Below are positions 10,827 through 42,829 of a DNA stretch of 64,000 nucleotides, piece by piece. This DNA comes from Desulfovibrio mangrovi (lineage in GTDB: Bacteria > Desulfobacterota > Desulfovibrionia > Desulfovibrionales > Desulfovibrionaceae): the NCBI RefSeq assembly GCF_026230175.1, contig NZ_CP104208.1, forward strand, positions 186,001 to 250,000, read 5' to 3'. The translations under genes were made by a program, and so were the position numbers. The notes beneath the pieces were generated by a model that was given only the letters and a program-made list of their open reading frames with translations, was not told the DNA's origin and did not search any database. Position 1 is the first letter of the stretch. Every line of letters starts with the position of its first letter.

Positions 10827-12206
10827 ATGCATGCTCTACTCATAGTTGACGATAATCAGGATGTGCGGAGCCAGTTGCGCTGGGGGCTTTCCAAAGAAGG
10901 GTATTCTCTGCATCTGGCAGGGGACGGGGAAGAGGCCATGGCGTTGTTCAGGGAGCATGCCCCAGGCGTCGTGACGCTGGACCTTGGCCTGCCTCCGGAT
11001 CCTGACGGAACCAGTGAGGGCTTTCGGCTGCTTCAGGAGATGCTGAGTGAAAAGCCGGAGACGCAGGTTATTGTCATAACGGGACATCATGACAGGGAAA
11101 ATGCGTTGAAGGCCATTAACTACGGTGCATACGATTTTTGCCGAAAACCAGTGGACCTGTCGGAAATCAAGGTTCTCATCAATCGCGGTTTCTATCTGCA
11201 CAGTCTGAGAAGCGAGAGTGCGAGAGCGTCTCTTGTTTCGGCCTCGCATACGGGCGGGGAAGATGACTGTATGGATGGCATCATCGGCAAGTGCTCGGCC
11301 ATGAAGGATGTGTATTATGCCATTCGCAAGGTGGCGGCCACCGATGTGCCCGTGCTGGTTACCGGCGAGTCCGGAACAGGTAAGGAGCTTGTTGCCCGGG
11401 CCATTCATGCCGGAGGGCTGCGCAAATCTGCGCCCATGGTTACGATCAACTGTGGGGCCATACCGGAGAATTTGCTGGAAGCCGAGTTCTTCGGTCATGA
11501 GAAAGGCGCATTTACCGGTGCCATAAGCAGAGTGCAGGGGAAGGTGGAGTTTGCTGATAAGGGCACCCTGTTCCTTGATGAGATTGGCGACATTCCTTTC
11601 AACATGCAGGTGAAGTTGTTACGTTTTCTTCAGGAGATGGTCTTTCAGCGGGTGGGAGGCCGGTCGGATATTTCGGTCAATACCCGCATCATCGCCGCCA
11701 CCAATCTTGATCTGGAAGAAGCCATGCATAACGGCAGGTTCCGTGAAGACCTGTATTACCGCATCGGGGTTGTGAGCATTCATCTTCCCCCGCTTCGCGA
11801 GCGTGAGGACGATGTGCTTCTGCTGGCGGATATGTTCCTTGAGCAGATGTCGCACGAGAACAATGTCGCCATGAGCGGGTTTACCGCCTCTGCCCGCAAG
11901 GCGATGCTGCATTACAGCTGGCCGGGCAACGTACGCGAATTGGAAAACAAGGTCCGTCGTGCCGTCATTATGGCAGGCGGACAGCGGATATCTGCCGAGG
12001 ACCTCAATCTTGACGAACGGGCTCCGCAACCCAGCGGGCAGGCATCGAACCTTACGTTGAAAGAGGCGCGGAATGCGATTGAAAAGGAAATGGTTGATGC
12101 CGCGCTCAAGCGGTTTTCCGGCAATATCGTGCAGGCAGCCAAGTCCATCGGCGTGAGCAGGCCTACCTTCTACGATCTGCTCAAGAAGCACGATATCTCG
12201 GTGTAA
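10827..12206 (+). CDS. prsR: PEP-CTERM-box sigma-54 response regulator PrsR
   Basis: 459 residues. Receiver domain (about 3-125) with phospho-acceptor Asp52 in VVTLDLGLP and the conserved lysine in FCRKPVDL. The AAA+ sigma-54 interaction domain follows: Walker A GESGTGKE, the sigma-54 contact loop GAFTGA in its canonical form, Walker [12 protein letters not shown], and the R-finger region [13 protein letters not shown] Fis-type DNA-binding helix-turn-helix ends the protein ([22 protein letters not shown]). It should activate sigma-54 promoters of PEP-CTERM and polysaccharide genes when phosphorylated by PrsK. Start ATG 10827 is preferred to 10809 and 10821 because AGAGGGG lies 7 bases before it. 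Sigma-54-like promoters found near 36.4 and 42.2 kb are possible targets, which is inference. Confidence 0.94.
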
Positions 12207-24172: not shown

Positions 24173-25976
24173 TGTCCGTCGTTGCCTGACCCTTGCGGGG
24201 CTGGCGCTCGCTGTGTTGCTGAGCGTTCCTGCCGCTGGGTACTGCGCCGTGCAGGTGGCGGTTGCGCAGGTGCTGACCCCCTGTTCACCGTTGACGGACT
24301 GCAGACAGCCTCAGAATCACGAAGGCATTGTGTTGCGCGGAGGTGGCGGAGAAAGCGTAACCGTGCAGCTTGTCATCGGATTCGGATCGCAGGCGCTCAG
24401 GGATATTTCCTTTGTTTTCGATGTGGATGGCCTTCATACGGCGCATGCGTGGCGCGCATGGTCCATCTGGAATGTGCCGGAAGTTGCCGTGCCGGTGCGC
24501 ATGCAGCTTGGCGGGGCCGATAGGGCGTCCGTAGCCGGGGGGGCGATCGAGGATGCGGTTGTCCCGCGTTTTGATCTGCCGGATGTCAGAGAGGGAGCAG
24601 CAGGAGAAGGCGCGTTTGTCTCCTGCCCCGTCTACGTGGAGTGCGAGCTGCCCCGAGGCAAGGCCGGACAATATGCGGGAACGCTCACCATGCTCTCGGA
24701 AGGGAGGGCGGTTGCACAGATTCCCGTGCGGGTGGACGTGTTGCCGTATGATCTGCCCATGGTTCCCGACTTCATTGTGGAGATGAATTCATATGGCGAC
24801 TGGACGCGGCTGCTTGCGCCGGACGTGGACAGCTACCTCGCCATTCACAGGCTGTTCAGGCGGTTCAGAACCACGTTTACGCAGGTTCCCTATAGGCAGG
24901 ATGGCTCGGCGGTGCTGCCGTTCATGGAGCCTGTGGTGACCGTGCATTCCGGTGGGCTTGCTGCGGACTGGCAGGCTTTCCGCGAGGCCAATGGGCCGTT
25001 GTTTGACGGGACAGCCTTTGCGGATGGTCAGCCGGTGACGCACTTTGTCTTGCCGTTCCGCTATGGCTGGCCTGCCAAGTCTGACCGGGCGGCCAAAGAA
25101 GGTTCCGGCAACCAGAAGCAGAGAGAAGCGGCGAGGAATGACGGGCTGCGGCAGGCGGTGAAGACTTTTCTGATTGAGCAGGGGTGGCTTGCCGCAGACG
25201 GAGGCGTAACGGGCACGCGGTTTCAGGAGTTTCACAACGAGAATCCCGAACATGGTTCCAGTGCGCCGTGGTTTCTGGATGAGCCCAGAACCATGAAGGA
25301 TATGGAGGGGCATGGGCTTTACACGGGACTGAGCATCGGTGGTTTTTCCGCCTACAGGATTGATGTTTCCGATTGGCGACGGGTTCGCGGCGGACTGGAG
25401 CGTGTGGGAAATCAGGTGGATGACTGGTTTGTATCGACCAATCCTCTCTATCTGAACAAAGAGGCCATCGCCTTCTTTCATGGCCTGCAGGCGCGGCGGG
25501 AGGCTGGGCGGCAGGCAACTGCAGGCTGGCTGTTCGGTTACGGTGAGTTGCCCGGTTTTGTCAGAGAGGGCAACGCGGTTTCGTGGGCAGCGTTGGTAGC
25601 GGAGCTTTGCCGGTACTGGAGCATGGGGCTGGACGGATACGCCCAGTGGATCACGGATGTATGGAAGCCCGCCAAACGACCGGAACTCCCCCTGTACGCC
25701 CGACCGTTGTTTTTTGCCAATGCGGGGGGCGCGCGTACCTTCTTCTGGCCGGGGCGATATCTTGGCGTAAACGGCCCTTTGCCCTCTCTGCGACTCTTTG
25801 CCGTCAGGCAGGCCGTGCAGATGACGGATACGGCTGCATTGGTGTGCAAACGCTATCCCGAGCGCTGCGCAGACGTGCGAGTACGGATGGCGTCACTTTC
25901 TCCCCAAGATGAACGCGATGTGATAGCATGTATGCAGGAGTTGCAGAATCTGTTGTCGGAACACGGGGAGCAGTGA
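24153..25976 (+). CDS. Secreted glycoside-hydrolase-like protein (DUF4091-type)
   Basis: 607 residues from ATG 24153 (GAGGGGG just upstream), overlapping the preceding transferase by 20 bases. A signal peptide (about 1-31, ending GYCA) leads to a beta-rich domain (about 40-190). A TIM-barrel-like domain follows, with FIVEMNSYGDWTRL, FHNENPEHG, PWFLDEPRT and the C-terminal FWPGRYLGVNGPLPSLRL. The last segments resemble DUF4091 proteins related to GH123. The acidic residues in FHNENP and FLDEPR are possible catalytic sites, but this is inference. It would act in the periplasm or outside, perhaps trimming the same polymer. The class is moderately sure; the substrate is unknown. Confidence 0.68.
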   Translation: MRRLSADVRRCLTLAGLALAVLLSVPAAGYCAVQVAVAQVLTPCSPLTDCRQPQNHEGIVLRGGGGESVTVQLVIGFGSQALRDISFVFDVDGLHTAHAWRAWSIWNVPEVAVPVRMQLGGADRASVAGGAIEDAVVPRFDLPDVREGAAGEGAFVSCPVYVECELPRGKAGQYAGTLTMLSEGRAVAQIPVRVDVLPYDLPMVPDFIVEMNSYGDWTRLLAPDVDSYLAIHRLFRRFRTTFTQVPYRQDGSAVLPFMEPVVTVHSGGLAADWQAFREANGPLFDGTAFADGQPVTHFVLPFRYGWPAKSDRAAKEGSGNQKQREAARNDGLRQAVKTFLIEQGWLAADGGVTGTRFQEFHNENPEHGSSAPWFLDEPRTMKDMEGHGLYTGLSIGGFSAYRIDVSDWRRVRGGLERVGNQVDDWFVSTNPLYLNKEAIAFFHGLQARREAGRQATAGWLFGYGELPGFVREGNAVSWAALVAELCRYWSMGLDGYAQWITDVWKPAKRPELPLYARPLFFANAGGARTFFWPGRYLGVNGPLPSLRLFAVRQAVQMTDTAALVCKRYPERCADVRVRMASLSPQDERDVIACMQELQNLLSEHGEQ

Positions 25977-25980: not shown

Positions 25981-28900
25981 ATGACGGAAGAAACCAGGGA
26001 ATACTCGATGCAGGCGCGGTGCACCCGCCTTGCGCGCGGCATTGCCGACTGGCTTGCCTCTCTGCAGGTTGCGGAGGCGGGGTATGACCTTGGCGGCATT
26101 CGTGATCCGCTTTCCGGCGTTGTGGCGGGTGAGCATTATTCCGCAAGTCATTTCGCGTGGGTGCAGCTTCTTTTGAGCCGGCAGGCCGGAGAAGAGCCTG
26201 AACGGGTGCGGGCGGCAAGGCTGGCTCTGGATTTTCACGTGCGGACTTCGCCTGAGGAGTATGCGCCCAAAACGTGGGATTATCATTGGGACTTCAATAA
26301 CCTGGCCTTTGCAGCCGCTTTCGGTCTGTTGGGGGATGCGCTGAGCGTAGAGGAGCGTGACAGCTACATTGTCTCAATGATGACGTGGCGCACCAATCCG
26401 CATCATGCCGTCAACTGGGTTGCCATGCGCTGTCTCGGCGCAGCCATGCGCCATGCCTTTCTGGGCTTGCCGGAAGATGCCCTGCAGGCTGTGCAGTGGC
26501 TTGATTTTGTGTTGGATGCCCAGTTGTCCGACGGCGGTATCGAGGATGTGAAGGGAGAGAGCCTTCCCAGCCAGTACCATGCCTACACAGCCTGTCTGCT
26601 GCATCTGCTGCTGGAGCCTGACATGATACCACGGCGGGAGAAGGATTCCCGGGTTGGCACTGCTGAGACTCCGGCGTCATCCACGTTGGCCGGGATGCTG
26701 GAAGGGGCAACTTCAGCCCCAGTTGAATCCCGTGTCCGGATGGCGGTGGTTGCTGCCGCCAGATGGCTGCTTGCTATCTGCGGGCCGGATGGGGAGATGA
26801 ACGTTCTTGGACGCGGGCAGAGACAGATTTTCGGCTATGCCTGTGCGGTCTATCTGTTCCGTGCGGCCATGGCGTTGGATGCCGGCAGGGCCGGAGAATA
26901 CCGCTGGGCAGCCGAATCGGTTCTGGCAAGGCTGGAACGCCATGTCAGAGAGGACGGAAGGCTTCCTCTGGTGTTGAGCGGACTGTCGGATGCCGAACGC
27001 GCCGGTTGGTACGATTATCATCACGGCACCGTCTACAATGCCTTTGCCGCCGTTTGGTTGCAGAAGGCCGCTGATTTGCCTGTCATGGAGGACGTGTCGT
27101 CAATGCTTCCTGCCACCGGCGTGACGCACCTTCACGACTCCGGTCTGCTTGTCCTTCGCACCGGAGCCTATTTCGCCCTGTTCAGCAAGGGGCACGCAGG
27201 GGCTGGATATGCGACCGAGGCGGGCATCACGCCGCATCTGCTGATGGCGGATGGGCAGGTTCTTTTCAGCTGTCCGCTGGGACCTCTTGCGGGAAAATAC
27301 GGTGAGCGTTGTCCTCATAATGGGCAGAGCGCCAATGTATGGGCTCCTGTCTGGGCGGTGCCCTATTCGGAAGAAGGGGCGTTAGCCGTTGCGTCAGCCG
27401 GAAAGCGGAACTGCAGTTCGTGGGTTGCCCCGACAGGTGAACACGGCAGCATCGTCAGGCATTCGGAGCATGTCTGGACTCTGCGGTTGCAGGCGCATGG
27501 CGCAGTATGGGAGCGCCGTCTGGCCGTGGGGCCATGGCACCTTGAGGCCAACGACACGCTCACGCTTTCCGGACATGAAGGTAACGGTGCCGTGCTGGTT
27601 CGTCCCATCAACATCAGCCTGCCTGCTGCCATGCCTGTTGACCAAAAGGAAGGACCGTTCCGTCTGGCCGTGTTTCCTGACCCCATAGCACCGCAGGAGA
27701 AAGTGGTTTCAGCAGGGGGCGTGATGCAGGTGCTCGCATCGGAGAGGCTGGTTTCCATTGCCGAAAAGACGGAAAGCATCCGGTCCGGATGGCGGCTCAG
27801 ACTGCGTTCGGGGCAGGGGGGCGACGGCAGGATTCCGCCTGTCGTGACCTTGAGCTGGGACCCGTGGAGCCGCCTCTGGAAGAGAAAGCAGAGGCTCATG
27901 CACTCGCTCTGGCAGCGGCACGGGCTTGCGGTTTCCTATGTGGAACCGGCTGTGCGGATGGCGGATGTTGTGGCCCACGGCAGAAAGCTGGCCGGTAATG
28001 ACGAGTACAGCAGACGGCTTCGCCGCAGCCTGTGGCCGTTCGGCACGTCCGTGGGTAACGGACTTTCCCTGTATTCCCTTCTGCTACCCTTGCCTTTTGC
28101 ACGAACCTTCCCGTCGTTGGCGGCTGCCAATACGCGCTACTGGTTGCGTCAGGTAGACAGGGTGGTGAAGAAGGCTGGTGCGAAAGAGGGCTACGTTCTC
28201 TGGGTGTATCATCCGTCGCAATTGGAGGCCGTGGAGGTTTTCGGTGCCGAGGCATCACTTGTTGTTTACGACTGGACGGACGACTGGGTGGCAGCCTTGC
28301 CGGATTCCTTCTCGGAAGACTACAGGGCTGACCTGGCAAGAAGGCAGGAGGCTCTGTTGCGCCGCGTGGATGTGGTGTTTGCCGTTTCAGAGGAGCTGGC
28401 AAGGCGCGCTTCGGCCTATTGCCCGTGGGTACACTATCTTCCCAACGGAACGGATACGTCGACCTTTGCACCGGTTGAACGGGAATGGCGGGAGGGCCGC
28501 CCCTGCATAGTCTATCTCTCCCAGATCACCGAACGGCTGGACGTGGCCCTGCTCAGGAATCTTGCTCTTGCCTCGCCGCAGTGGGATTTCAAACTCATCG
28601 GTCCCGTGGTGTGTGATCCGGCCATTGTCGCTCCCCTGCGGGAGCTGTCCAATGTGACGCTCGTCGGAGCCATGGCCTATGTCGAAGCAGCCAGCGCCAC
28701 AGCGCACGCGGATGTCTGCATACTGCCTCATGTGGTGGACGCATTGACCGCCACGCTCGACCCCATCAAGATCTACGACTATCTGGCCACGGGTAATCCG
28801 GTGGTTTCCACGGCCGTGGCCATGCATCCGGCGCTCAGGGAGCATGTGCGCATAGCGTCCGATGCTGAAGCGTTCCGGCGGGCCATTGCGGATTCGCTGG

Positions 28901-29022
28901 CTGAGGATGCCGGTGCTCGCAACGTGCGCAGGCAGGCCGTTTTGGCGCATTCATGGGAGGCGAGGGCGGATGAACTCAAGAGCATTCTTTCCGGTTACTT
29001 CGGGGGTGGGGAATGCGCATAG
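25981..29022 (+). CDS. Fusion: heparinase/lyase-like toroid domain joined to a glycosyltransferase
   Basis: 1013 residues in one uninterrupted frame. Residues 1-400 have helical-hairpin motifs (WDYHWDFNNLAFAAAF, NPHHAVNWVAMRCLGA, GWYDYHHGTVYNAFAAVWL). Residues about 400-615 look like the beta-sheet domain of heparinase II/III-type lyases (LLVLRTGAYFALFSKGHAGAG, ITPHLLMADGQVLF). From about 620 a glycosyltransferase begins (LSWDPWSRLWKRKQRLM, VVYDWTDDWVAALP, VHYLPNGTDTSTF, LDPIKIYDYLATGNPVV). No signal peptide or membrane segment is seen, so it is predicted cytosolic. A ribosome site is weak (GGGGAG 8 bases before). It starts 4 bases after the previous stop and overlaps the next gene by 10. Such a fusion is unusual; the lyase-like part may be inactive or act on lipid-linked intermediates. 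Confidence 0.75.
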   Translation: MTEETREYSMQARCTRLARGIADWLASLQVAEAGYDLGGIRDPLSGVVAGEHYSASHFAWVQLLLSRQAGEEPERVRAARLALDFHVRTSPEEYAPKTWDYHWDFNNLAFAAAFGLLGDALSVEERDSYIVSMMTWRTNPHHAVNWVAMRCLGAAMRHAFLGLPEDALQAVQWLDFVLDAQLSDGGIEDVKGESLPSQYHAYTACLLHLLLEPDMIPRREKDSRVGTAETPASSTLAGMLEGATSAPVESRVRMAVVAAARWLLAICGPDGEMNVLGRGQRQIFGYACAVYLFRAAMALDAGRAGEYRWAAESVLARLERHVREDGRLPLVLSGLSDAERAGWYDYHHGTVYNAFAAVWLQKAADLPVMEDVSSMLPATGVTHLHDSGLLVLRTGAYFALFSKGHAGAGYATEAGITPHLLMADGQVLFSCPLGPLAGKYGERCPHNGQSANVWAPVWAVPYSEEGALAVASAGKRNCSSWVAPTGEHGSIVRHSEHVWTLRLQAHGAVWERRLAVGPWHLEANDTLTLSGHEGNGAVLVRPINISLPAAMPVDQKEGPFRLAVFPDPIAPQEKVVSAGGVMQVLASERLVSIAEKTESIRSGWRLRLRSGQGGDGRIPPVVTLSWDPWSRLWKRKQRLMHSLWQRHGLAVSYVEPAVRMADVVAHGRKLAGNDEYSRRLRRSLWPFGTSVGNGLSLYSLLLPLPFARTFPSLAAANTRYWLRQVDRVVKKAGAKEGYVLWVYHPSQLEAVEVFGAEASLVVYDWTDDWVAALPDSFSEDYRADLARRQEALLRRVDVVFAVSEELARRASAYCPWVHYLPNGTDTSTFAPVEREWREGRPCIVYLSQITERLDVALLRNLALASPQWDFKLIGPVVCDPAIVAPLRELSNVTLVGAMAYVEAASATAHADVCILPHVVDALTATLDPIKIYDYLATGNPVVSTAVAMHPALREHVRIASDAEAFRRAIADSLAEDAGARNVRRQAVLAHSWEARADELKSILSGYFGGGECA

Positions 29023-32664: not shown

Positions 32665-32729
32665 ATATGTATATATAGTCCATTGTTGTGCGATGCAAAA
32701 GAAACTTTTTGCGTGTAGTATGGAGCATA

Positions 32730-34247
32730 ATGATGATTAAGTTTCTGTTGTATTCCATAGGGTCAGTCACTTTCAATGCCCCGTTAGTAATGACCATTCT
32801 TTTCATGGTATTCTATCTTGTTGTCGGGATTATGTCTTTCAGGCGTCCTGCGCTTGCCCTGATATTGTATTATGGGACAACGATAATGAATCCGCAGCTT
32901 CATTATCCGGTATTCACCTTGTTGCCCATGGCCAAGATTTCTGCGGGTATTTGCCTGCTTGCATGTTTGGTCAATGCCCGGTCCTTGAGCTTTTCTCTGC
33001 CGAAACAGTTGATTTTTCCTATTGTTTTCCTGCTGTTTTCAGTGGTCTGCACTATTTCAGCCATAGACCCTTCCCTTGCCGAGAAACGCTTCGATGAGTT
33101 CATCAATATCGGCATAATGCTGTTCATGGTCGTGTGGGCCGTGGAAACGCGCGATGACATCGACTGGCTGTTCTGGGGGGTGCTGTGTAGCTTCTGGTTC
33201 GGTGTTTTCAAGAATCTGGTCGAGACCCAGACCTTGGGCAAATGGTATGCCGTGGGTGGTACCGGCGGCTGGATTTCAGATTCCAACGACTGGGCGTTGG
33301 CCGTGTCCATGGCTGTCCCCCTATTCTACGCTTCCTGCTTTCATCCCCGCGTCAAGTCCAAGTTGCTCAGGGTGTTCATGGGGTGCACCCTCATGGCGGC
33401 TCTGCTTATCATTACCATTACCTCGTCGCGGGGAGGATTCCTTGCGACCGGTGCGGCTTTCTGCGCTCTCATGGTTACCGAAAGCAAGAGGATGCGGGCC
33501 GTGGCCGGAATGGGGGTAATCCTGTTGGTGGTCATTGCCTACATGCCGGATAGTTATGTGGGGCAGATCCGCAGTATTTTCGAGATAGGAGATACAGCTT
33601 CGGAGGTCTGGCACGGTGATCGGGAATTTGAAAAGTACACGGGCGGTGAGCGGGTATATTTCTGGCGGGTTGCCCTTGAAATCATGCGGGAGCACCCATT
33701 GACAGGCATAGGCTGGGGAAATTTTATCGAGCAGTTTGCCCTGCGTGAAGGGCTTGAGAAAGGAGTCGTTGCACATAGCACCTGGTTTCAGATTGCGGCA
33801 GAGGCAGGCGCTGTGGCGTTGTTTGCCTACGTGGGCATGATCGTTACTGCCATTATCTCATTGCTCAGGTCGTTGAAAAAGGCGCGGGAGCAGAATGACG
33901 CCGTGCTCGCGACTCATGTGAGAGCATTGGGGGCGGGGATTGTGGCGTTTGTTGTGGGGGGGAGCTTTATCAGTCGGGAAAATTCCGAGTTGATCTTTCT
34001 GTATGTTATTATGGGGGCGATGATTTCCCAGATACTGTCAAAGCAGGCCGCAGAAGCTGAACAGACGAAGGAGGCATATAAAAGGATTGAACACGCTGCG
34101 CCTGTTGCTGAATTGGGGTCGGAGGTGCTGGCCGTATCTCCTGCGGACGAGAGGCATGTTTTGTCAGAGAGCCAGTCGCGTTATGTGGCGCGGTTGCGGA
34201 ATAAAACGCGATATGTGTTGAAGAAGGACAAGGCAAAGGAGTTGTAG
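32730..34247 (+). CDS. O-antigen-ligase-like (Wzy/WaaL) protein, exosortase A-associated
   Basis: 505 residues with 10-12 membrane helices. The N-terminal half (FRRPALALILYYGTTIMNPQLHY; TISAIDPSLAEKRFDEF) and the large loop with WHGDREFEKYTGGERVYFWRVAL and EHPLTGIGWGNFIEQF match the ligase family of XrtA systems (TIGR03097-like); the H in VAHSTWFQIAAEAG is the likely catalytic histidine. It either polymerises the repeat units or ligates polymer to an acceptor, possibly a sorted protein. ATG 32730 and ATG 32733 are both possible; GGAG is 4 and 7 bases before them. A charged 60-residue C-terminal tail is cytoplasmic. G+C is lower than upstream, starting the drop that continues to 36.1 kb. Confidence 0.88.
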   Translation: MMIKFLLYSIGSVTFNAPLVMTILFMVFYLVVGIMSFRRPALALILYYGTTIMNPQLHYPVFTLLPMAKISAGICLLACLVNARSLSFSLPKQLIFPIVFLLFSVVCTISAIDPSLAEKRFDEFINIGIMLFMVVWAVETRDDIDWLFWGVLCSFWFGVFKNLVETQTLGKWYAVGGTGGWISDSNDWALAVSMAVPLFYASCFHPRVKSKLLRVFMGCTLMAALLIITITSSRGGFLATGAAFCALMVTESKRMRAVAGMGVILLVVIAYMPDSYVGQIRSIFEIGDTASEVWHGDREFEKYTGGERVYFWRVALEIMREHPLTGIGWGNFIEQFALREGLEKGVVAHSTWFQIAAEAGAVALFAYVGMIVTAIISLLRSLKKAREQNDAVLATHVRALGAGIVAFVVGGSFISRENSELIFLYVIMGAMISQILSKQAAEAEQTKEAYKRIEHAAPVAELGSEVLAVSPADERHVLSESQSRYVARLRNKTRYVLKKDKAKEL

Positions 34248-34414
34248 TTCGGCGCGAGTAGGCTGCCTATGGGGCTATGTGGCATGCAGGGAGCTGAAGA
34301 GTCGATAGCGGCAGCCCGTTCATGGTTCCTTTGGGGGGGGGGCGGAATGTGCAGGAAGAAGACGTTGTTGGATCTGTTTTGTTCTTCCGGACTTGGTGTC
34401 GAGAGGGAAGCATT

Positions 34415-35152
34415 ATGCGTGTTCGAATGTTGATACTGCTGTTTTTCGTGGTTGTCATATGTCTTGTTGGGGGGCGGTTGGGCAACAGTCTGTTGAAGCG
34501 ACTTCATTCACTACGTGTTGAACCTGTTGCGTGTCCGTCCGCTGTGTTCCCTAATGCTTCGGCTGAATCTGTTTCCATTTTGATGTTGGGTGATTCGAGG
34601 GTTCAGCTTTGGAGGGAGCCCAAGGTTGGGGCGGGGTATTTCGTGATCAATGCTGCTGTGGGGGGGTATACGACGGCTCAGGTGAGGATTCAGACGGAAA
34701 TATGTGGTCTTCCTGCTGCGGATTATGCCTTTGTTCAGGTAGGGATCAATGATGTCTACTCGTCTTGCTTTCTTGATGTTGACCGGGATGTCGTCGTGGC
34801 AAAGGCAAAACATAACATCGAAGAAATGGCACGTAAGCTTAGTGGAGTTGTTCGTGTGCTTGTTCTTTCTACAGTAGCGCCTCCGGGGACTCCGGATCTG
34901 ATTCGACGGATGTATGTTGATGAAAGGCTTTGGGATGATGTGGCAGAGCTTAATAGGTTTATTGTTAACCTGTGCAGGCGTAATGGCTATCGTTTGATTG
35001 ATTTGAATGGCCTTCTTTCTGGTCATGACAAACGTCGTCTGGACGAGAAGTTTGTTGATAGAGACTTTTTTCTGCATTTTAATGAAAAGGCATATGGTGT
35101 GTTGGATATTGAGTTTGGGAGGATTATCAAAGGAGAAGCTTGTGAAAGATAG
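34415..35152 (+). CDS. Membrane-anchored SGNH/GDSL hydrolase
   Basis: 245 residues. An N-terminal hydrophobic anchor (about 4-25) is followed by SGNH blocks: ILMLGDSRVQLW (block I, catalytic serine), an INAAVGGYTTAQVR glycine block, VQVGINDVYSS (block III, G-x-N-D) and DFFLHFNEKAY at the end (catalytic D/H region). SGNH enzymes remove or transfer acyl groups. The next gene is a membrane acyltransferase overlapping by 11 bases, so the two look like a split version of the AT3-SGNH fusion enzymes that O-acetylate surface polysaccharides. GAGAGGGA precedes ATG 34415. G+C falls steadily through the gene, unlike the main cluster. Confidence 0.82.
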   Translation: MRVRMLILLFFVVVICLVGGRLGNSLLKRLHSLRVEPVACPSAVFPNASAESVSILMLGDSRVQLWREPKVGAGYFVINAAVGGYTTAQVRIQTEICGLPAADYAFVQVGINDVYSSCFLDVDRDVVVAKAKHNIEEMARKLSGVVRVLVLSTVAPPGTPDLIRRMYVDERLWDDVAELNRFIVNLCRRNGYRLIDLNGLLSGHDKRRLDEKFVDRDFFLHFNEKAYGVLDIEFGRIIKGEACER

Positions 35153-36158
35153 GCTTTACCCTCTTGATTTGATGCGCGGTGTCGGTATTTTTTTAATTAT
35201 TATATATCATTGTTATAAAAATATTTACATTTTTAGTGCGCAAAATTCTGAAGTTTTCAGATTGCTTTTCTTTACAACTGGTTTTTTTGTTTTTATTTCT
35301 GGGTTTACGGCTGCTGTTTCAGGTCGAGATATGTTGTCTTGTTGTGATTTGGGTGTTTGGAAGGTGTATATTAAGAAGAAGATTGTTAGATTTTTAAAGC
35401 TGTTTGTAATTGTTTTGTTTGCAAATATTTTTTTCGTTGTAATTTCTATGGGTGGTGTCGGTTCTGTTCTTGATAGAGTGTTGTCAGTTTTTTGTTTGTT
35501 TTATGTTGATAGATGGGATGTGTCTTATCAAGTGCTTGCTTCTGTTGGTGTGAGTGTTTTGATGTGTGCTTTGTATATGTATGTTTATAGTTTGAGAAGT
35601 AGGGTTGATTTGGCTTTTCTTGTTTTTGTTGTGTTATTGTGTATTGTTATGGATTTTTTTTATGGAGTAGTTCCATATCTTTGGAGGTTTGCGTTCCAAG
35701 GGGTGTTGGGATGTTGTGTTGGTGTTGCTCTTCGGTGGAGTGGTGTGGACAGGCTTGAGCTGTGGATTGTTATTGTGTCTTTGTTTTTGTCATTTGTAAT
35801 GTTGTTGCTTGGTAGTCTATTTTCATATAATTTAATGTTTCAAAATAGTGTGTGGTTTGGTTTTGTATCCTCTGTGTCTTTTTTTATTACTTTTTACTTG
35901 TTTTCTGTTAGGTTTATAGGTTATGAGGGTGTTATTTCAAAATATATGCAGCATGTAGGTAGGTCGTCTTTGTTTTATTACATAGTTCAAGGTGTTGTTA
36001 TAATTATTGTTGCAAAATTGTTTAGGTCTGATAGTGATGTGGTGGTTGTGGTGTCTTCTGTTTTTGTTTTGTTTTGTTGTTCTTCTATGTATGTGCTGGC
36101 AGAGCGATTGAGGCGTGTTCGTAGTATAGATCGTATGTACCGTTTTATTTTTTGTTGA
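35142..36158 (+). CDS. Membrane acyltransferase (family 3), AT-rich
   Basis: 338 residues from GTG 35142, with AGGAG 8 bases upstream, overlapping the SGNH gene. It starts KDRLYPLDLMRGVGIFLIIIYH with the family-3 histidine near residue 24, then FFTTGFFVFISGFTAAVSGRD and about ten membrane helices (VVISMGG, CIVMDFFYGVVPYLW). Base composition is very unlike the neighbourhood: two sampled 60-base lines hold 17 and 21 G+C, against 35 in a line of the upstream cluster, with strong T over A on this strand and T-ending codons. This indicates transfer from an AT-rich donor. Family call is based on pattern and topology, hence moderate certainty. Confidence 0.75.
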   Translation: MKDRLYPLDLMRGVGIFLIIIYHCYKNIYIFSAQNSEVFRLLFFTTGFFVFISGFTAAVSGRDMLSCCDLGVWKVYIKKKIVRFLKLFVIVLFANIFFVVISMGGVGSVLDRVLSVFCLFYVDRWDVSYQVLASVGVSVLMCALYMYVYSLRSRVDLAFLVFVVLLCIVMDFFYGVVPYLWRFAFQGVLGCCVGVALRWSGVDRLELWIVIVSLFLSFVMLLLGSLFSYNLMFQNSVWFGFVSSVSFFITFYLFSVRFIGYEGVISKYMQHVGRSSLFYYIVQGVVIIIVAKLFRSDSDVVVVVSSVFVLFCCSSMYVLAERLRRVRSIDRMYRFIFC

Positions 36159-36415: not shown

Positions 36416-36431
36416 TGGCATGGAAATAGCT
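36416..36431 (+). promoter_or_regulatory. Candidate sigma-54 promoter before the FeeM-like gene
   Basis: TGGCAT-ggaaa-TAGCT fits the sigma-54 consensus TGGCAC-N5-TTGCW at 9 of 11 positions and keeps the essential GG (36417-36418) and GC (36429-36430) exactly 10 bases apart. The gene start (36493) is 62 bases further on. Possible activator sites are the repeats at 36256-36286, about 130-160 bases upstream. PrsR, encoded at 10827, is one possible activator; no evidence ties it to this site. Confidence 0.42.
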
Positions 36432-36492: not shown

Positions 36493-37380
36493 ATGCAAAC
36501 CGGACAAGACAGACGCCGTACCATCCGCATCCGCCGGTCATCCCTGCTGCAGTGCAAGCTGGGGAACATTGACCGTCCGGCCATAAAGATCGCGGAAGAG
36601 GCGGATGAATATAAGCAGGCGTTCCGCATCATCTATGATGAATATCTGAAAGAAACCTATGCCAAGCCTCACGCCAGCAAGATGCTGTACAGCGCATACA
36701 GCATGTTGCCAAAGAGCGTGACCTTCATCTTCAAATCGTATCTGGAGGTGTTATCAACGGTAACACTTGTTCAGGATACCAAGTTGTTCGGCCTGCCCAT
36801 GGACAGTCTGTACAAGGATGAGATCCAGGCGTTGCGTGACTCTGGAAGAAAGGTGGCAGAGATCGCCAACCTGGCAACCAGAAGAGTGCACAGGTGGTCC
36901 AACTTGATGATCTATCTGGCAAGGGCTCTCTATAGGTATGCCCTGTTCTGCAAGGTAGACGACGTAGTTATCATGGTGAATCCCAAGCACGTGCGGTTCT
37001 ATAAGGACATATTGCTGTTCGAGGATTTTGGCGAAGAGAAGCATTATGAGGCGGTGGGGGCACCTGCCGTGGCCTTGCGTGCGAACATGGACTCCTTCAG
37101 CAAAAGTCTGGCTGGGGCATACGCCGAAGCGGATTTTGAGACGGATCTCTACAGTTTCTTCGTCAAGATCAACCATGCTGAGAATGAACCGGAAGTGGAA
37201 TATTCCGCAGAGAAGAACCGGCTGATGGATATGCAGCTTGCCAGTGAGCTTTTCGATGCCCGTCCGGATCTATTGCGAAGTCTCAATCCGAAGCAGCGGG
37301 AATACCTGGAGGTGGTTTACCACCAGGCGTTGTTTTGCGGAGGGCTCTTTGGGGAAGGAGAGATAATTGGACATGCCTGA
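36493..37380 (+). CDS. FeeM-like N-acyl amino acid synthase (GNAT, autoinducer-synthase-like)
   Basis: 295 residues. FRIIYDEYLKETYAKP (about 49-64) is the N-terminal strand/helix pattern of FeeM and PEP-CTERM-associated acyltransferases. TVTLVQDTKLFGLPMDSLY and GRKVAEIANLATRRVHRW follow the E-hydrophobic-x-x-L-A motif of acyl-homoserine-lactone-synthase-like folds; NLMIYLARALYRYALFCKVDDVVIMVNPKHVRFYKDILLF (split over about 150-190) gives the acyl-CoA/ACP-binding region. FeeM joins a fatty acyl chain from acyl-ACP to an amino acid (tyrosine in the prototype). The protein is longer than AHL synthases. GAGGTGG lies before ATG 36493; its last codons overlap the next gene, so the two are coupled. 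Substrate is unknown. Confidence 0.75.
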   Translation: MQTGQDRRRTIRIRRSSLLQCKLGNIDRPAIKIAEEADEYKQAFRIIYDEYLKETYAKPHASKMLYSAYSMLPKSVTFIFKSYLEVLSTVTLVQDTKLFGLPMDSLYKDEIQALRDSGRKVAEIANLATRRVHRWSNLMIYLARALYRYALFCKVDDVVIMVNPKHVRFYKDILLFEDFGEEKHYEAVGAPAVALRANMDSFSKSLAGAYAEADFETDLYSFFVKINHAENEPEVEYSAEKNRLMDMQLASELFDARPDLLRSLNPKQREYLEVVYHQALFCGGLFGEGEIIGHA

Positions 37381-39433
37381 TGCAGGAACCGAAGCAAGGA
37401 AGAAGCTCTCCAGCCAGGGGCTCGATTGCCACGGCAGTTATGTGGATGCAGCCTTTTGCCGCAATCTCGGGCTGGTTGACTATGCGGGGCAGCAAAAACT
37501 GCATGGCACCCGCATAGCCATAGCCGGATTGGGCGGTGTGGGCGGTGTGCACCTTATGACACTGGCCCGTACCGGCATTGGGGCGTTCAATCTGGCAGAC
37601 ATGGATTCCTTCTCCGTGGTGAACGTGAACCGTCAGTTCGGCGCAACGCTCGACTCTTTCGGCAGGCCCAAGCTGGACGTGATGGTGGAGCTGGCCCGCT
37701 CCGTCAATCCCTGCATCTGTTTCAAGACCTTCCCTGACGGGATTTCCGATGCCAATCTGGATGACTTTCTGAAAGGGGTTGATATCGTCGTCGACGGTAT
37801 CGATTTTTTTGCCTTTGACATTCGCAGGCGTCTGTTCAAGCGTGCCCATGACCTTGGAATTCCTGTCATAACGGCAGGCCCTTTGGGGTTCAGTACGGCA
37901 GTGCTGGTTTTCATGCCGGACGGCATGGGGTTTGATGAGTACTTTGATATCAACGACACCCTGCCGGAGATGCACAGGTACCTGCATTTCGCCATGGGGC
38001 TTGCGCCCCGGGCAACCCATCTTGCCTACCTCGACAGACAATTCGTGAATATTCATGAGAAGCGTGGACCTTCCTTGCATCTGGCCTGCCAGCTCTGTGC
38101 TGCCATGGCAGCAACAGAGGTTGTACGCATCGTGCTTGGCAAGGGGCGGGTGCGCGCTGTGCCCTGCTATGCCCAGTTTGATCCCTATGCAAGAGAGTTC
38201 AGGAAAGGCAGGCTGCTGATGGGGAATCGCAACCCCTTGCAAAGGCTCAAGATTGCGGTGGCCAAAAAGCTGTTCCTCGGAGGCGGAGGTAGGGAAGGAC
38301 TTGTGGTTCCTCCTGTTCCATCATTGGTACAGAGAGGGGAGCCTGTGCCTGCAAATGCCGTGGAATATGTCATGCGCGCAGGCATGCAGGCTCCTTCCGG
38401 CGACAATGTGCAGCCGTGGCGCTTTCTTCCCTTTGATGGAGGGATTGATGTTGCACTGCACACGGAGGCTGATCACTCGTTCTTCAACTATGACCAGATA
38501 GCATCGCTTGTGGCATGTGGTGCCGCAGTGGAGAATATGCGTCTTGCCGCTGCGGCGACAGGCTTGGGCCCGACAGTGACGCTTGTGCCGCAGCCTGCTG
38601 AGCAATCCTCTCATCCGGTTGTGGCGCGAGTAGAGTTTTCACCGGATGGGCAGGAACGGGAGGATGTGCTTCACAGCGCCATGTGGCGTCGTTGCACGAA
38701 TCGCAATATGTTTGGCGCAAAGCCTTTGCCGCACGAAGTGTGCGACAGGCTTTCCGGCATGGTGGCACAGGCGAAGAGCGGCTTTGATGATATCAGGCTG
38801 CACTGGGTTACCGGAAAGTCCGAGCGAAAGGCCCTTGCGCGGGCGATATTCCTTGCGGACAGGATTCGTGTCGAACGGCGTGATCTGCATGAATATTTCA
38901 TGTCCATGGTGCGTTTTGAAAAGCCTTCGCAGAAGTATGGGGATGGTCTGCCTCTGAAGAATCTGTGCGCGGGGTTGGCAGGAGAACAGTTCCTGAAACT
39001 CGTGCGTCCGTGGACAGCCATGCGTATCGCGAACATGGCGGGCGTAGGCAGGCTTATGCCCATGCATTCCGCGCTGGGCATCATGCGTTCAGGCGGCGCC
39101 GGTCTGCTGACCATAGGCAAGGTTGATATGCCGTCCATACTGCAAGGCGGGCAGGCCATTGAACGCGTCTGGATCATGCTGGAACATATGGGCTTCGCCT
39201 TCCAGCCCATGACGGCGATAACCCTGTTCCGGCTGCGTGAAATGCTTGAAGGCGACGGCGCTTTTTCCGAACTCCACAGAGGCTTCATGAAAGAAGCTTG
39301 GGGGATTGTCAGCGCATTGTTTCCCGAGGCCAACGGGCGCATACCGCTCATGCTGTTCCGGACGGGCAGGGGGCCTCGCCTCAGATATGGCACGTACCGG
39401 AGAGAACTGCATACCTTGATGCTGCAGAGGTGA
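37373..39433 (+). CDS. ThiF/E1-like adenylyltransferase fused to a nitroreductase domain
   Basis: 686 residues. E1 part (about 30-280): GxGGxGG nucleotide loop in IAGLGGVGGVHL, DMDSFSVVNVNRQFG (adenylation aspartate and R finger), GRPKLDVM lysine, VVDGIDFFAFDIRR and one CxxC (ACQLCAAM). Nitroreductase part (about 320-680): RAGMQAPSGDNVQPWRF (FMN phosphate site), CGAAVENMRLAAAATGLG and GQAIERVWIMLEHMGFAFQP. The same two-domain layout occurs in the mycobacterial MoeY-type protein Rv1355c. E1-like enzymes adenylate a carboxyl terminus and nitroreductases oxidise small molecules. Coupled to the FeeM-like gene, it probably activates and oxidises the acyl-amino-acid product. TTG 37367 (6 bases after AAGGAGAG) is an alternative start to ATG 37373. 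Confidence 0.85.
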   Translation: MPDAGTEARKKLSSQGLDCHGSYVDAAFCRNLGLVDYAGQQKLHGTRIAIAGLGGVGGVHLMTLARTGIGAFNLADMDSFSVVNVNRQFGATLDSFGRPKLDVMVELARSVNPCICFKTFPDGISDANLDDFLKGVDIVVDGIDFFAFDIRRRLFKRAHDLGIPVITAGPLGFSTAVLVFMPDGMGFDEYFDINDTLPEMHRYLHFAMGLAPRATHLAYLDRQFVNIHEKRGPSLHLACQLCAAMAATEVVRIVLGKGRVRAVPCYAQFDPYAREFRKGRLLMGNRNPLQRLKIAVAKKLFLGGGGREGLVVPPVPSLVQRGEPVPANAVEYVMRAGMQAPSGDNVQPWRFLPFDGGIDVALHTEADHSFFNYDQIASLVACGAAVENMRLAAAATGLGPTVTLVPQPAEQSSHPVVARVEFSPDGQEREDVLHSAMWRRCTNRNMFGAKPLPHEVCDRLSGMVAQAKSGFDDIRLHWVTGKSERKALARAIFLADRIRVERRDLHEYFMSMVRFEKPSQKYGDGLPLKNLCAGLAGEQFLKLVRPWTAMRIANMAGVGRLMPMHSALGIMRSGGAGLLTIGKVDMPSILQGGQAIERVWIMLEHMGFAFQPMTAITLFRLREMLEGDGAFSELHRGFMKEAWGIVSALFPEANGRIPLMLFRTGRGPRLRYGTYRRELHTLMLQR

Positions 39434-39732: not shown

Positions 39733-40473
39733 TTAGTGGACAGTCACACTCGGGCCGCAGTCTCCGTCAGTACAACTCATGATCCGGTTGCGCTCGGAAT
39801 CTTTTGCTGCATCCAATGCCTTGGTCGCCTTGTCGAAAACTTCAATGGCAGAGTTGCATTTCTCGAAGCCCGTGCTGCATATCCCGAAGGCTATGGCGTC
39901 CGGAATCGTTGACTTTATCTTGCGGAATACGGACATGACCTGCGCATCCAGACGTCTCGCCAGAACCTGTGCTCCGATTTCGTCCGTGTTTGTCAGCAGA
40001 AGGGTGTAGTTGTTCTGGTCTATCCGCGAGAAGATATCTGTGGTGCGGATGGCACCGGCCACAATCTCGGAAAACGTTCTGTGTATGTAGTCCGGTGTCT
40101 TGCCGAGTTCCTTGGCCAACGAGCGCGCATTCACGATGGTGAAATGCACAATGGAGAGAGGTTGATCGTTCCGTTTGCTTTTGGCGAATTCCACATCCAA
40201 GGCCTTGAAGAAAAAGCGGTTGTTATAGGTTTTGGTAAGCGGGTCAACGAGGATCATGTCCTGAAGTTTGTGCTGGGAATAGACGTATAGGCAGACAAAA
40301 ATGGTTATGTATGCTGCGGCGTACAGGAAAAGGGGCATGACGTTGCACGCGCCGGTTTCGGTGGTCGTAATGTATTTGATTGCAAGCCAGCCTACAGGGA
40401 AGAACAGGAGTGAGGCTCCCAGCACTTTGGCATTGCGGGAAAAATGCGGTGTGTTGAGCAGTGTTTTGATCAT
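39733..40473 (-). CDS. Membrane protein with degenerate GGDEF domain
   Basis: 246 residues from ATG at 40473 (AAGGAG 9 bases before; an upstream in-frame start at 40524 lacks one). Two membrane helices (about 17-35 and 46-66) are followed by a GGDEF-fold domain starting DPLTKTYNNRFFF. Where active enzymes have GGDEF the sequence reads RIDQNNYTLLL, so no diguanylate cyclase activity is expected, and no RxxD inhibition site is seen. The end is unusual in having a short cysteine-bearing tail (SCTDGDCG). It follows the active cyclase gene by 51 bases on the same strand. It may be a c-di-GMP effector, a decoy partner or a heterodimer subunit (inference). Confidence 0.82.
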   Translation of the reverse strand: MIKTLLNTPHFSRNAKVLGASLLFFPVGWLAIKYITTTETGACNVMPLFLYAAAYITIFVCLYVYSQHKLQDMILVDPLTKTYNNRFFFKALDVEFAKSKRNDQPLSIVHFTIVNARSLAKELGKTPDYIHRTFSEIVAGAIRTTDIFSRIDQNNYTLLLTNTDEIGAQVLARRLDAQVMSVFRKIKSTIPDAIAFGICSTGFEKCNSAIEVFDKATKALDAAKDSERNRIMSCTDGDCGPSVTVH

Positions 40474-40524
40474 AAGCACAAGCTCCTTGTTTTTGGTAAA
40501 GGGGTGCTGTGCTTTTGCTTGCAA

Positions 40525-42186
40525 CTAACATGCACGTTTGTTGCGATACATCATTGCATCGGCAAATTTTAGCAATTCTTCGTAACTTTCACCGTCGTCC
40601 GGAAATATGGCGAACCCCAATGATGCGGTTATCTGAATTTCGTGTTCGTCAATCATGTATGGCTGGTTCGTCATGCGCTGAATCTTGTCTGTAAATGTCT
40701 GGGCGCTCTCAGGGGAGCCAACTTCCGGCAGCAGGAAGATGAATTCGTCTCCGCCGTATCTGGCAACGGTGTCCGAGGCTCGGATCGCCCGTTCCAGTCT
40801 GTTGCCTACCTGACTCAGCAGCATGTCTCCCACATGGTGTCCAAACGTGTCGTTGACCTCCTTGAACCCATTTAGGTCCATGATCATGAACGTGAACCGT
40901 GATTGCGTGCGTTTGCAGCGTTTTATCTCCTGCTGGATTCGTTCTTCGAAGAGAAGGCGGTTGGGAAGTTGCGTGAGTTTGTCGTAATACGCAAGCTTGC
41001 GGATGTTGGCTTCAGCATGTTTCTGCGAAGTTGTGTCCTGAATGGTCAGAACGTAGCCTGCCAGCCCCTCGCTGCTGGGTACAATGTTGATGCGATACTG
41101 CACGTAGCGTTTTTCCCCGTCTATGTTGAGCCAGGAGTTAATGACCTGCTCGTTGCCCGCTCTGGCGTTTTTCAGTGCCTCCAGCAATTCGTGGCGTGAG
41201 ATATTGCAGGCGTCCGAGATGATCCAGATGGGGTTGCCCAGCCGCAATTGCTCGGGCTTGTCCAGAAATTCGCCTGCAGCCGAATTGAAGTAGATGATGC
41301 CCAGATGCTCGTCGGTCCCGATGATGCCAGTCTTGAACGTATGTGCGAGAACTTTTTCAAGAAACGCAGCTCTGCCTTTGCTGACTTCGGGAGCGGGGAC
41401 GGTGGCGTCCGTCAGGCTGGCCGATTGCCGTATGGGGCATTCGCAATAACCGGTAAGTATATCCTCGCGGGAGAGGGTGCCGATCGGACTGCCCTCAGCA
41501 TTGGTAACCACAGCGATATCAATGGGTTTTAAAAGGAATGAGGAAAGGAAAAGGTGCAGGCAGTCTTTTCTCGGGAGCACCTGAGTGTCCAGAGCGACTT
41601 CCGAGGTTTTCGTGTGCCAGATGTCGCAGCCCTGTTCAATGAGGGAGCTGATTAATCTGTCAGTCACAATTCCTTCGGTGTGACCGTTGTCATCTACGAC
41701 AATTGCGATTCGGCTATGTGTGTTGAAGAGCTTCTTGTGGGCTGTGTATATGCTCTCGTCTCGATGGACGATTTCATGCTTTTCAGACGAGAGAAGATGC
41801 TCTGTGTAGCACAGTTCACTGGAAAATAACTGCGCTATTATTGAAGTTATTTGTGTGTAGCCGATAGGAGAGCCGTTTTCGGTTACAACAATCAATGTGT
41901 CTCTCTGAATGTTTGTACATGTCAGATGAGCCAGTATGGTGTCTGACGCATCAGCCATGACAATGTCATTCATATCTGCATGTTCAAAGGACAATGAATC
42001 GTCTGGTGCATGATTGAGAAGCGTCTTTGCGGAAACTGCAACAAAACTGCCATTGCTGAGAGCTATGGGAATGGAGGATGTCTTCTGCTCGATGAGAATG
42101 TCAGCAATGGTACTTACCTGAGCATCGTGAGCAACAGGTGGGATGGCGTAAAGCTTTAATTCTTTTAGTGTTCTTCTGGCTATCAT
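40525..42186 (-). CDS. Diguanylate cyclase with CBS pairs and PAS domain
   Basis: 553 residues, no membrane segment. Two CBS pairs (about 1-260: IADILIEQKTSSIPIAL, DTLIVVTENGSPIGYTQI, RIAIVVDDNGHTEGIVTDRLI, DIAVVTNAEGSPIGTLSREDIL), a PAS domain (about 285-400: TFKTGIIGTDEHLGIIYFNSAA) and a GGDEF domain. The active-site motif GGDEF is intact at 478-482, preceded five residues upstream by RASD, the product-inhibition I-site. It should make c-di-GMP with nucleotide sensing through the CBS pairs (energy state) and a ligand or redox cue at PAS. ATG 42186 (ACGGAG 7 bases upstream) is chosen over an 18-residue extension. Divergent from the PilZ gene. Confidence 0.92.
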   Translation of the reverse strand: MIARRTLKELKLYAIPPVAHDAQVSTIADILIEQKTSSIPIALSNGSFVAVSAKTLLNHAPDDSLSFEHADMNDIVMADASDTILAHLTCTNIQRDTLIVVTENGSPIGYTQITSIIAQLFSSELCYTEHLLSSEKHEIVHRDESIYTAHKKLFNTHSRIAIVVDDNGHTEGIVTDRLISSLIEQGCDIWHTKTSEVALDTQVLPRKDCLHLFLSSFLLKPIDIAVVTNAEGSPIGTLSREDILTGYCECPIRQSASLTDATVPAPEVSKGRAAFLEKVLAHTFKTGIIGTDEHLGIIYFNSAAGEFLDKPEQLRLGNPIWIISDACNISRHELLEALKNARAGNEQVINSWLNIDGEKRYVQYRINIVPSSEGLAGYVLTIQDTTSQKHAEANIRKLAYYDKLTQLPNRLLFEERIQQEIKRCKRTQSRFTFMIMDLNGFKEVNDTFGHHVGDMLLSQVGNRLERAIRASDTVARYGGDEFIFLLPEVGSPESAQTFTDKIQRMTNQPYMIDEHEIQITASLGFAIFPDDGESYEELLKFADAMMYRNKRAC

Positions 42187-42232
42187 GGCGTATCTCCGTT
42201 TTCTGTCGGGGACCCTGCCTTTGGCTTTGTGT

Positions 42233-42248
42233 TGGCACAATAATAGCA
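42233..42248 (+). promoter_or_regulatory. Strong candidate sigma-54 promoter for the PilZ gene
   Basis: TGGCAC-aataa-TAGCA matches TGGCAC-N5-TTGCW at 10 of 11 positions with GG (42234-42235) and GC (42246-42247) 10 bases apart. A start about 12 bases on would leave a leader of some 75 bases before ATG 42335. Activator sites, if any, would lie inside the start of the divergent cyclase gene. Confidence 0.58.
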
Positions 42249-42270: not shown

Positions 42271-42334
42271 GGCGTTGGTTCTGATGTCTTGTATGAGCTT
42301 TCGATCACGTCCTATCTTCTGGAGATGATTGCAC

Positions 42335-42829
42335 ATGAGCCGTTCAGTAACAATATGCTTTGACTTGTCGGCGGACGAACACAGGGTGCTGCAATTTTTA
42401 GCCCAATCAGAGGGACTCTCTTCTGGCGGATACGCGCGTAATGTGATCAAACGGTACTTGAAGGAATCTGAAGGAAGCGAAGGTATCGGCCGGGAAAGGA
42501 GAAGAGATTTCAGGCAGCAAGTTTCTATTCCTGCAGTATCTCTTGTAAATTATTCCGACAATGTGTCGAAAAGTCATCCCGTGATAATCAAGGACATCTC
42601 AAAGAGCGGTGTGAATATCATATTCTCCGAGATGGACATTCCATTGCGTGACCTATTGCGGTCTGCAAAGGGATTTGAACTTGTTTTTACAGTACCGGTG
42701 TCCGGCGCGACCGTTGCCCTGTCATGTAAGGTAAGTCGAACAACCTTCGGGGCAAGTGTTTCCATGGCCGGTGAATTCTGCAACGCAACGCACCATGAGG
42801 TTACGGCTCTGGCTCCAATATTCCAGTAG
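42335..42829 (+). CDS. Ribbon-helix-helix-like plus PilZ domain protein
   Basis: 164 residues. Residues 1-44 (VTICFDLSADEHRVLQFLAQ, GLSSGGYARNVIKRYLKE) follow the beta-helix-helix pattern of CopG/Arc DNA-binding proteins. Residues 52-160 form a PilZ domain with the c-di-GMP arginine motif RxxxR at R56-R60 and the DxSxxG motif at 87-92 (DISKSG). This would be a c-di-GMP-responsive DNA-binding protein, or a PilZ effector whose N-terminus only dimerises. It is divergent from a diguanylate cyclase gene, which supports c-di-GMP as ligand. ATG 42335 lies 10 bases after GGAG; TTG 42329 is an alternative. The RHH assignment is from pattern and less sure than PilZ. Confidence 0.8.
   Translation: MSRSVTICFDLSADEHRVLQFLAQSEGLSSGGYARNVIKRYLKESEGSEGIGRERRRDFRQQVSIPAVSLVNYSDNVSKSHPVIIKDISKSGVNIIFSEMDIPLRDLLRSAKGFELVFTVPVSGATVALSCKVSRTTFGASVSMAGEFCNATHHEVTALAPIFQ

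Follow-up and report, generated by a model that had tools for sequence, protein, structure and literature searches.

The OxzA-like synthase gene and its overlapping partner

The window analysed here, the whole stretch of 64,000 nucleotides from Desulfovibrio mangrovi, carries on its forward strand two overlapping genes, one for a FeeM-family N-acyl amino acid synthase and one for a protein that joins a ThiF-type domain to a flavin-dependent oxidase, and the same window holds an exopolysaccharide locus of the exosortase/PEP-CTERM kind. The gene pair and the domains of its second product are as follows.

36493-37380, + strand: OxzA-like FeeM-family N-acyl amino acid synthase, 295 amino acids, ATG at 36493, TGA at 37378-37380
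37373-39433, + strand: OxzB-like fusion of a ThiF cyclase and a flavin-dependent oxidase (nitroreductase fold), 686 amino acids, ATG at 37373
37457-38206, + strand: ThiF/E1 domain, residues 31-280 (PF00899, 1.4e-46; Foldseek 1zud, 1jw9, 9egb)
38333-39418, + strand: flavin-dependent oxidase domain, residues 323-684 (C-terminus of NF005901, NF047509, Foldseek 2ymv)

We find that the genes overlap by 8 bases, and an earlier sequence-only reading, which had described a FeeM-like protein overlapping an E1-nitroreductase fusion, was exact in its coordinates and is matched by the profiles PF21926, PF00899 and PF00881. The mechanically called open reading frame of the fusion gene begins at TTG 37367, and the residue ranges of the domains are counted from there.

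The first protein matches Pfam FeeM (PF21926) at 7.2e-48 (162.8 bits, passing the curated cut-off of 27) and the FeeM structure 2g0b in the PDB by sequence at 1.1e-13. Its AlphaFold2 model has a predicted local distance difference test (pLDDT) score of 84.0, and Foldseek ranks 1-6 are all chains of 2g0b, with TM scores of 0.82-0.86 by target length, which bears out the FeeM fold supposed earlier. The N-terminus of NCBIfam PRK14852 also aligns with it (7.1e-95; 318.8 bits, under the 1337-bit cut-off), and TIGR03694, which describes a PEP-CTERM/exosortase system-associated acyltransferase, gave no match to it at E ≤1. It is thus a FeeM-family N-acyl amino acid synthase for which acyl transfer is predicted, from sequence and from the structural model. 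An autoinducer synthase of acyl-homoserine lactone (AHL)/LuxI type was considered and rejected, as PF00765 is absent among its Pfam matches at E ≤0.1. The window's genome contains one FeeM match and four ThiF matches.

The fusion protein passes the Pfam cut-offs for both of its halves, ThiF PF00899 with 159 bits (cut-off 28.1) and Nitroreductase PF00881 with 46.3 bits (cut-off 23.5). The oxidase domain matches NF047509 (Acg family) at 1.4e-38 and has residues 323-684 as its best stretch against the C-terminus of NF005901, while the whole protein aligns with PRK14851 at 8e-244 and with the C-terminal two thirds of PRK14852 at 1.8e-233. Foldseek matches to its model (pLDDT 87.7) include Acg 2ymv, ThiF 1zud and MoeB 1jw9, and AclA, a ThiF-fold protein, is found at rank 8. 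Across 28 aligned fusion sequences, the window's own included, G52, G54, G55, G57, N86-R87-Q88, K100, D144 and A340-P-S-G-D-N345 are invariant, so the ThiF nucleotide loop and the FMN (flavin mononucleotide) nitroreductase motif are intact, as had been noted from the letters.

The function of TrzS, the fusion protein of the TrzA-TrzS system of Mycobacterium and Rhodococcus, is impaired by changes at D217, R540 and Q651 (PMC12856293). Mapped through a homologue from Mycolicibacterium sp. TY66, which stands in for the M. smegmatis sequence and is 27% identical to the window's fusion protein, these residues correspond to D144, R497 or R499, and Q611. The two arginines are indistinguishable as counterparts of R540 because the numbering offset is 15 at one residue and 13 at another; D144, R499 and Q611 are invariant in all 28 sequences and R497 is found in 21.

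Recurrence of the pair and the exosortase neighbourhood

The neighbourhood on which the earlier proposal had been staked does recur. Among 149 genomes drawn from the window's family, its own included, a FeeM-like gene was found in 18 (19 loci) and the full fusion gene in 14, the latter at E ≤2.3e-179 with all remaining matches no stronger than 6e-33. In all 14, which represent 6 genera, the fusion gene adjoins a FeeM-like gene, and thus the pairing is not due to chance. FeeM-like genes without the fusion partner occur at 5 loci in 4 genomes.

In three genomes of one genus the synthase and the fusion protein form a single open frame (987, 1060 and 1104 amino acids, upstream frame included), and in Nitratidesulfovibrio vulgaris DP4 the fused gene lies on plasmid pDVUL01 (L130, 19092-22061, 989 amino acids by length). 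PRK14852, a model of 989 positions, aligns with the synthase at its N-terminus and with the fusion protein over the remainder; the two therefore occur in nature as one protein. In the model and on pDVUL01 one coding sequence covers synthase, ThiF domain and oxidase, whereas the window has two overlapping genes. A profile scan with the fusion alignment, from which the best 80 of 175 loci were kept, supplied named relatives, and most names among these are those of sulfate reducers or their relatives. A contig scan with the single FeeM-like protein as query returned 26 pattern stretches and no relatives.

The window holds an XrtA/PEP-CTERM exopolysaccharide locus, with exosortase A and seven associated models over their curated cut-offs (TIGR03109, TIGR03007, TIGR03018, TIGR03015, TIGR03016, TIGR03006, TIGR02916 and TIGR02915). 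This module also encodes an export protein, a chain length determinant, a tyrosine autokinase, an ATPase, an outer membrane protein and a deacetylase, and it includes Pfam matches to Poly_export, exosortase and DUF3485.

237-12206, + strand: XrtA (exosortase A) exopolysaccharide module (curated TIGR models, Pfam)
7256-8110, + strand: exosortase (TIGR03109, 222.3 bits, cut-off 208)
8058-8729, + strand: EpsI-like, in the XrtA module
8744-10786, + strand: PrsK, in the XrtA module
10809-12206, + strand: PrsR, in the XrtA module
12273-36158, no strand assigned: rest of the polysaccharide cluster, glycosyltransferases included (profiles and translations)
15851-16945: FemAB-like (TIGR03019, 235.3 bits, under the cut-off of 260.35)
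25981-29022: glycosyltransferase-like (Pfam)
32688-34247: O-antigen-ligase-like (profile match)
34322-35152: SGNH hydrolase (profile match)
35007-36158: acyltransferase (profile match)

A match to TIGR03097 among the genes of the polysaccharide cluster reaches 150.6 bits, under the cut-off of 188.1, and a 611-amino-acid open reading frame inside the cluster (24141-25976) is without a Pfam match.

Comparison within the family shows that the pair belongs to such a locus. An exosortase (PF09721) over cut-off is present in 39 of the 149 genomes and in every one of the 14 that carry the fusion gene (hypergeometric P 9e-10, a value that treats related genomes as independent), and it lies on the same contig as the pair, at 22-51 kb, in 13 of 13 assessable genomes, the contigs of the remaining one (G130) being too short. 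In 12 of the 14 genomes a PEP-CTERM motif that exceeds the cut-off is no more than 2 kb from the pair (0.17 expected under random placement), and in 13 it is no more than 6 kb away (0.36 expected). The distances were measured as far as the motif, at the gene's 3' end, and these two counts are the unbiased ones. One exception at the 2 kb limit is G021, where the PEP-CTERM gene is 5.7 kb away, and the other is the window's own genome, which is also the single exception at 6 kb. When proteins were picked for signal-peptide-like starts, 4 of 4 in a first set and 8 of 10 in a second passed the PEP-CTERM cut-off of 20.7, the two failures scoring 20.2 and 15.7 bits. The lone FeeM-like loci have a PEP-CTERM gene within 3 kb in 3 of 5 cases. 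A search of the window's genome with a neighbour's PEP-CTERM protein, run without a positive control, gave no match.

Outside the family, exosortase-type polysaccharide genes near the ThiF gene were seen, as examples among the best 80 of 175 loci, in Ferrovum (L085-L087), Accumulibacter (L095), Dechloromonas (L119), Rhodocyclus (L122) and an ectothiorhodospiraceal metagenome-assembled genome (L082); many other loci of this set had none within the stretch examined. Colwellia (L096) and Alteromonas (L091), the two loci of marine Alteromonadales that were tested, have a PEP-CTERM protein near the pair and, beside the fusion, a synthase of the TIGR03694 type. The occurrence of N-acyl amino acid synthases near PEP-CTERM/exosortase genes has already been published, as passages citing that work relate (via PMC7293339, PMC4886054, PMC11072679 and PMC9762135); those citing passages mention neither a ThiF-oxidase partner nor a shared sigma-54 element.

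Two further features of these neighbourhoods were observed. One family of PEP-CTERM proteins, in which a CANDV-like motif stands a short way ahead of the PEP motif, recurs close to the pair or to lone FeeM-like genes (L025 12888-13652, L037, L031, L030, L032, L035, L038, L028 and L041), and the window's genome has a second exosortase about 40 kb downstream of the pair (G000:C1 265745-266500) with a polysaccharide export gene of its own (259895-260110).

Sigma-54-like elements, cyclic di-GMP genes and an exporter

A sigma-54-like element was defined as 16 bases with GG, ten bases and GC, at least 7 of 8 flanking matches being required. Two such elements and three genes related to cyclic di-GMP lie around the pair.

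36416-36431, + strand: sigma-54-like -24/-12 element TGGCATGGAAATAGCT, upstream of OxzA, score 7 of 8
39733-40524, - strand: GGDEF protein (PF00990, 9.9e-14)
40525-42240, - strand: CBS-PAS-GGDEF protein (PF00990, 1.6e-48; PF00571, 2.1e-11)
42233-42248, + strand: sigma-54-like element TGGCACAATAATAGCA, upstream of the PilZ-like gene, score 7
42329-42829, + strand: PilZ-like protein (PF07238, 3.5e-4; 21.3 bits, just under the cut-off of 22.5)

When this upstream stretch is shuffled, 0.7% of the resulting sequences score at least as high as TGGCATGGAAATAGCT. Of the 25 OxzA loci tested, 13 have an element of score 7 or more in the 400 bases upstream of the gene, against an expectation of 0.16 for shuffled sequence; the scoring was built from a consensus after the site in the window was known, gene starts are partly approximate, and the 25 loci leave out L042 of the family draw and most of the named loci. 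In L036, L037 and L052, which lack the element at OxzA, one is found before a PilZ gene that lies upstream of OxzA in the same direction. Such an element precedes 9 of the 14 PilZ-like gene starts tested (0.1 expected); of the 14, two are unverified as PilZ (L038, and L130, which has no Pfam match) and two are assigned at 27% tblastn identity (L029 and L034). In several loci further elements lie directly before PEP-CTERM genes, as judged by comparing positions by eye. An RpoN-dependent PEP-CTERM gene is described for Aquincola in an excerpt of PMC9850573, and the two-component pair PrsK/PrsR of the XrtA system lies inside the window, at 8744-12206. The pair thus seems, on the evidence of sequence, to be co-expressed with biofilm matrix genes in the relatives, and we suggest that sigma-54, under a PrsR-like activator, would transcribe it along with the PilZ and PEP-CTERM genes.

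A PilZ match in Pfam lies within 10 kb of the pair in 6 of the 14 fusion genomes (0.84 expected). In Mycobacterium trzAS adjoins genes of cyclic di-GMP turnover (PMC12856293), much as the pair in the window adjoins GGDEF and PilZ genes.

The sequence-only reading had also stated that no exporter is present, which is right for the surroundings of the pair in the window but incomplete, since a DevBCA-type exporter is encoded 4.4 kb before the window begins (178683-181674 in the window's genome) and beside the pair in several relatives. Among the 14 fusion genomes, 5 have it no more than 5 kb from the pair and 3, the window's own among them, at 38-41 kb; in 3 more it is on another contig, and the last 3 gave no strong match. 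The DevBCA-like ABC exporter of N. vulgaris DP4 follows the fused gene at 7.7 kb; its best NCBIfam matches are TIGR01185 and TIGR02982, with PRK03598 and TIGR02971 for the adaptor, all of them under cut-off. Heterocyst glycolipids are an export substrate of DevBCA. The transporter of this locus may be the exporter of the lipid product.

A putative oxazolone pathway, oxygen and alternative readings

N-acyl oxazolones are made from aromatic amino acids by OxzAB of Pseudoalteromonas rubra, TyzACB and TrzAS, and the characterised order is acyl transfer, ATP-dependent ring closure by ThiF and O2-dependent desaturation by the flavin domain, as set out in excerpts of PMC10404671 and PMC12856293. The window shares with OxzAB and TrzAS a ThiF domain fused to an oxidase of nitroreductase fold, and it has counterparts of the TrzS residues. 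Since families, folds and gene layout match OxzAB and TrzAS, we consider it quite probable that the best overall explanation is an OxzA-OxzB type pathway for N-acyl oxazolones (azlactones) within an XrtA/PEP-CTERM matrix locus. An N-acyl oxazolone is most likely the product, judging from sequence, structural models and analogy.

After acylation of the amino acid, the ThiF domain would adenylate its carboxylate with ATP, and the amide oxygen would close the ring to give a saturated oxazolone. The FMN domain would then desaturate the alpha-beta bond, for which O2 is required in the characterised homologues. The 8-base overlap couples translation of the two proteins, which are a single polypeptide in Nitratidesulfovibrio. 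The lipid could serve the extracellular matrix as a surface lipid, a matrix modifier or a signal; that it acts as a signal is a guess.

OxzA-OxzB of Pseudoalteromonas rubra is like the window in having a separate synthase followed by a ThiF-oxidase fusion and differs from it in host and context, OxzA being described here through the citing papers PMC10404671 and PMC12856293. TrzA-TrzS has the two-gene layout and the mapped catalytic residues in common with the window, although the excerpts of PMC12856293 report no exosortase link for it. TyzA-TyzB-TyzC comprises the same three activities, with cyclase and oxidase as separate proteins (excerpts of PMC10404671). The enzyme pair is thus not without precedent, as the OxzAB/TrzAS layout is known and a fused NCBIfam model exists, and a pathway without precedent was rejected (PMC12856293, PMC10404671). 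The sequence-only reading had the chemistry right in outline by analogy with these systems (acylate, adenylate and oxidise a lipidated amino acid) and erred in taking no such pathway to be known. A literature search, which worked from capped lists, mostly at title and abstract level, and covered few subscription journals, gave no report that sulfate reducers have oxazolone genes and none of a sigma-54 element common to oxazolone and PEP-CTERM genes; this is weak evidence of absence.

Several observations weigh against this interpretation, besides the assumption of independence behind the P value. O2 dependence fits poorly with anaerobic life. The curated NCBIfam cut-offs are missed, for PRK14851 with 810.7 against 1170 bits by the fusion protein, and for PRK14852 (1337 bits) by both separate proteins, with 318.8 bits for the synthase and 777.5 for the fusion. 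The promoter element is absent upstream of OxzA in 12 of the 25 loci, and the window as a whole has two elements on both strands together, where shuffles give about 1.55 per strand; as this total is not above chance, only the recurring position of the element counts as evidence. The window's own genome has no PEP-CTERM gene near the pair, the nearest being at 45.7 kb. Finally, of the 39 genomes of the family that have an exosortase just 14 contain the pair, so it is not needed for exosortase.

A possible though rather unlikely alternative is that the pathway really ends in an N-acyl dehydro amino acid with an open chain, comparable to the stieleriacines and the thalassotalic and kyonggic acids, with the oxazolone an intermediate opened by water. 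Excerpts of PMC12479983 describe a trio of synthase, ThiF and nitroreductase in producers of N-acyl dehydrotyrosines in which no oxazolone was seen, and because a related trio accompanies these open compounds the ring could be either kept or lost in the host; acid, moreover, hydrolyses oxazolones (PMC12856293). On the other hand, TrzAS and OxzAB, which have the fusion layout, yield oxazolones that are detectable in cells (PMC12856293).

We regard it as unlikely that an anoxic host runs the first two steps only, so that a saturated oxazolone or an N-acyl amino acid is made, the oxidase awaits O2 and the product reports oxygen. TrzS under limiting O2 does stop at the cyclised saturated compound, which piles up (PMC12856293), and the fusion occurs in many sulfate reducers. 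According to excerpts of PMC11072679, a gene whose annotation is that of an N-acyl amino acid synthase linked to exosortase showed some of the strongest up-regulation in the band of polysaccharide formed within a methane-oxygen gradient, and a Methylomonas mutant in this gene lost the band; the loss is not specific to the synthase, because mutants in two unrelated genes did likewise. The flavin could, however, hand its electrons to another acceptor.

The stalling of TrzS at the saturated ring under low O2 and the band loss of the Methylomonas mutant lead us to a bolder speculation, which we hold to be quite improbable, namely that the pair serves the biofilm matrix of sulfate reducers as a lipid switch gated by oxygen and controlled by sigma-54 and PrsR along with the PEP-CTERM and PilZ genes. 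Without O2 the saturated oxazolone would build up, and on exposure it would become a conjugated, electrophilic oxazolone that modifies the matrix or signals to it. If true, this would explain what anaerobes use a lipid pathway that depends on O2 for, and would link exosortase to a defined small molecule.

It is very unlikely that the enzymes modify a matrix macromolecule, such as a PEP-CTERM protein or a polysaccharide, and release no free lipid. The close linkage to PEP-CTERM genes and exosortase would fit this, but the characterised relatives all act on free amino acids in the excerpts of the literature examined, and the pair is missing from most exosortase genomes of the family.

The fold and the E1-type adenylation motif of the ThiF domain might suggest a genuine E1, one whose substrate for activation is a ubiquitin-like or sulfur-carrier protein. 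This is hardly credible, given that its constant partner is a FeeM gene, that the conserved cysteines are those of one CxxC alone (C239 in 27 of 28 sequences, C242 in 28), which leaves no separate conserved acceptor, and that no carrier-protein gene is among the listed open reading frames of at least 90 amino acids around the pair, smaller frames being unlisted and no dedicated search made. A ubiquitin-like conjugation system was rejected on the lack of a conserved acceptor cysteine outside the CxxC.

The biological role of oxazolone lipids has been called a major unresolved question (PMC12856293). The OxzA-OxzB type pathway proposed here would place one oxazolone branch, in anaerobes, at an XrtA/PEP-CTERM matrix locus where a sigma-54-type element recurs. 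This would make that role testable in sulfate reducers and raises the question of what use cells that avoid O2 have for a desaturase that depends on it.

Some loci depart from the arrangement in the window. In L115 (10001-10804) and L119 (9983-10891) a PRK08223-type ThiF gene sits in an exosortase-type locus between two MacB/LolCE-like permeases, and no oxidase domain or partner was detected beside it. A contig labelled as a Pacearchaeota archaeon has adjoining ThiF and oxidase genes (L116, 8956-10883), and is either archaeal or misplaced. Lone FeeM-like genes adjoin a gene for about 515-535 amino acids (L028 10600-12150, L041 10408-11973, L039 8021-9628 and L040 10609-12153), whose product is a FAD_binding_4 oxidase in L028 and L041, with an N-terminal resemblance only in L039 and L040, and which is possibly another oxidase partner.

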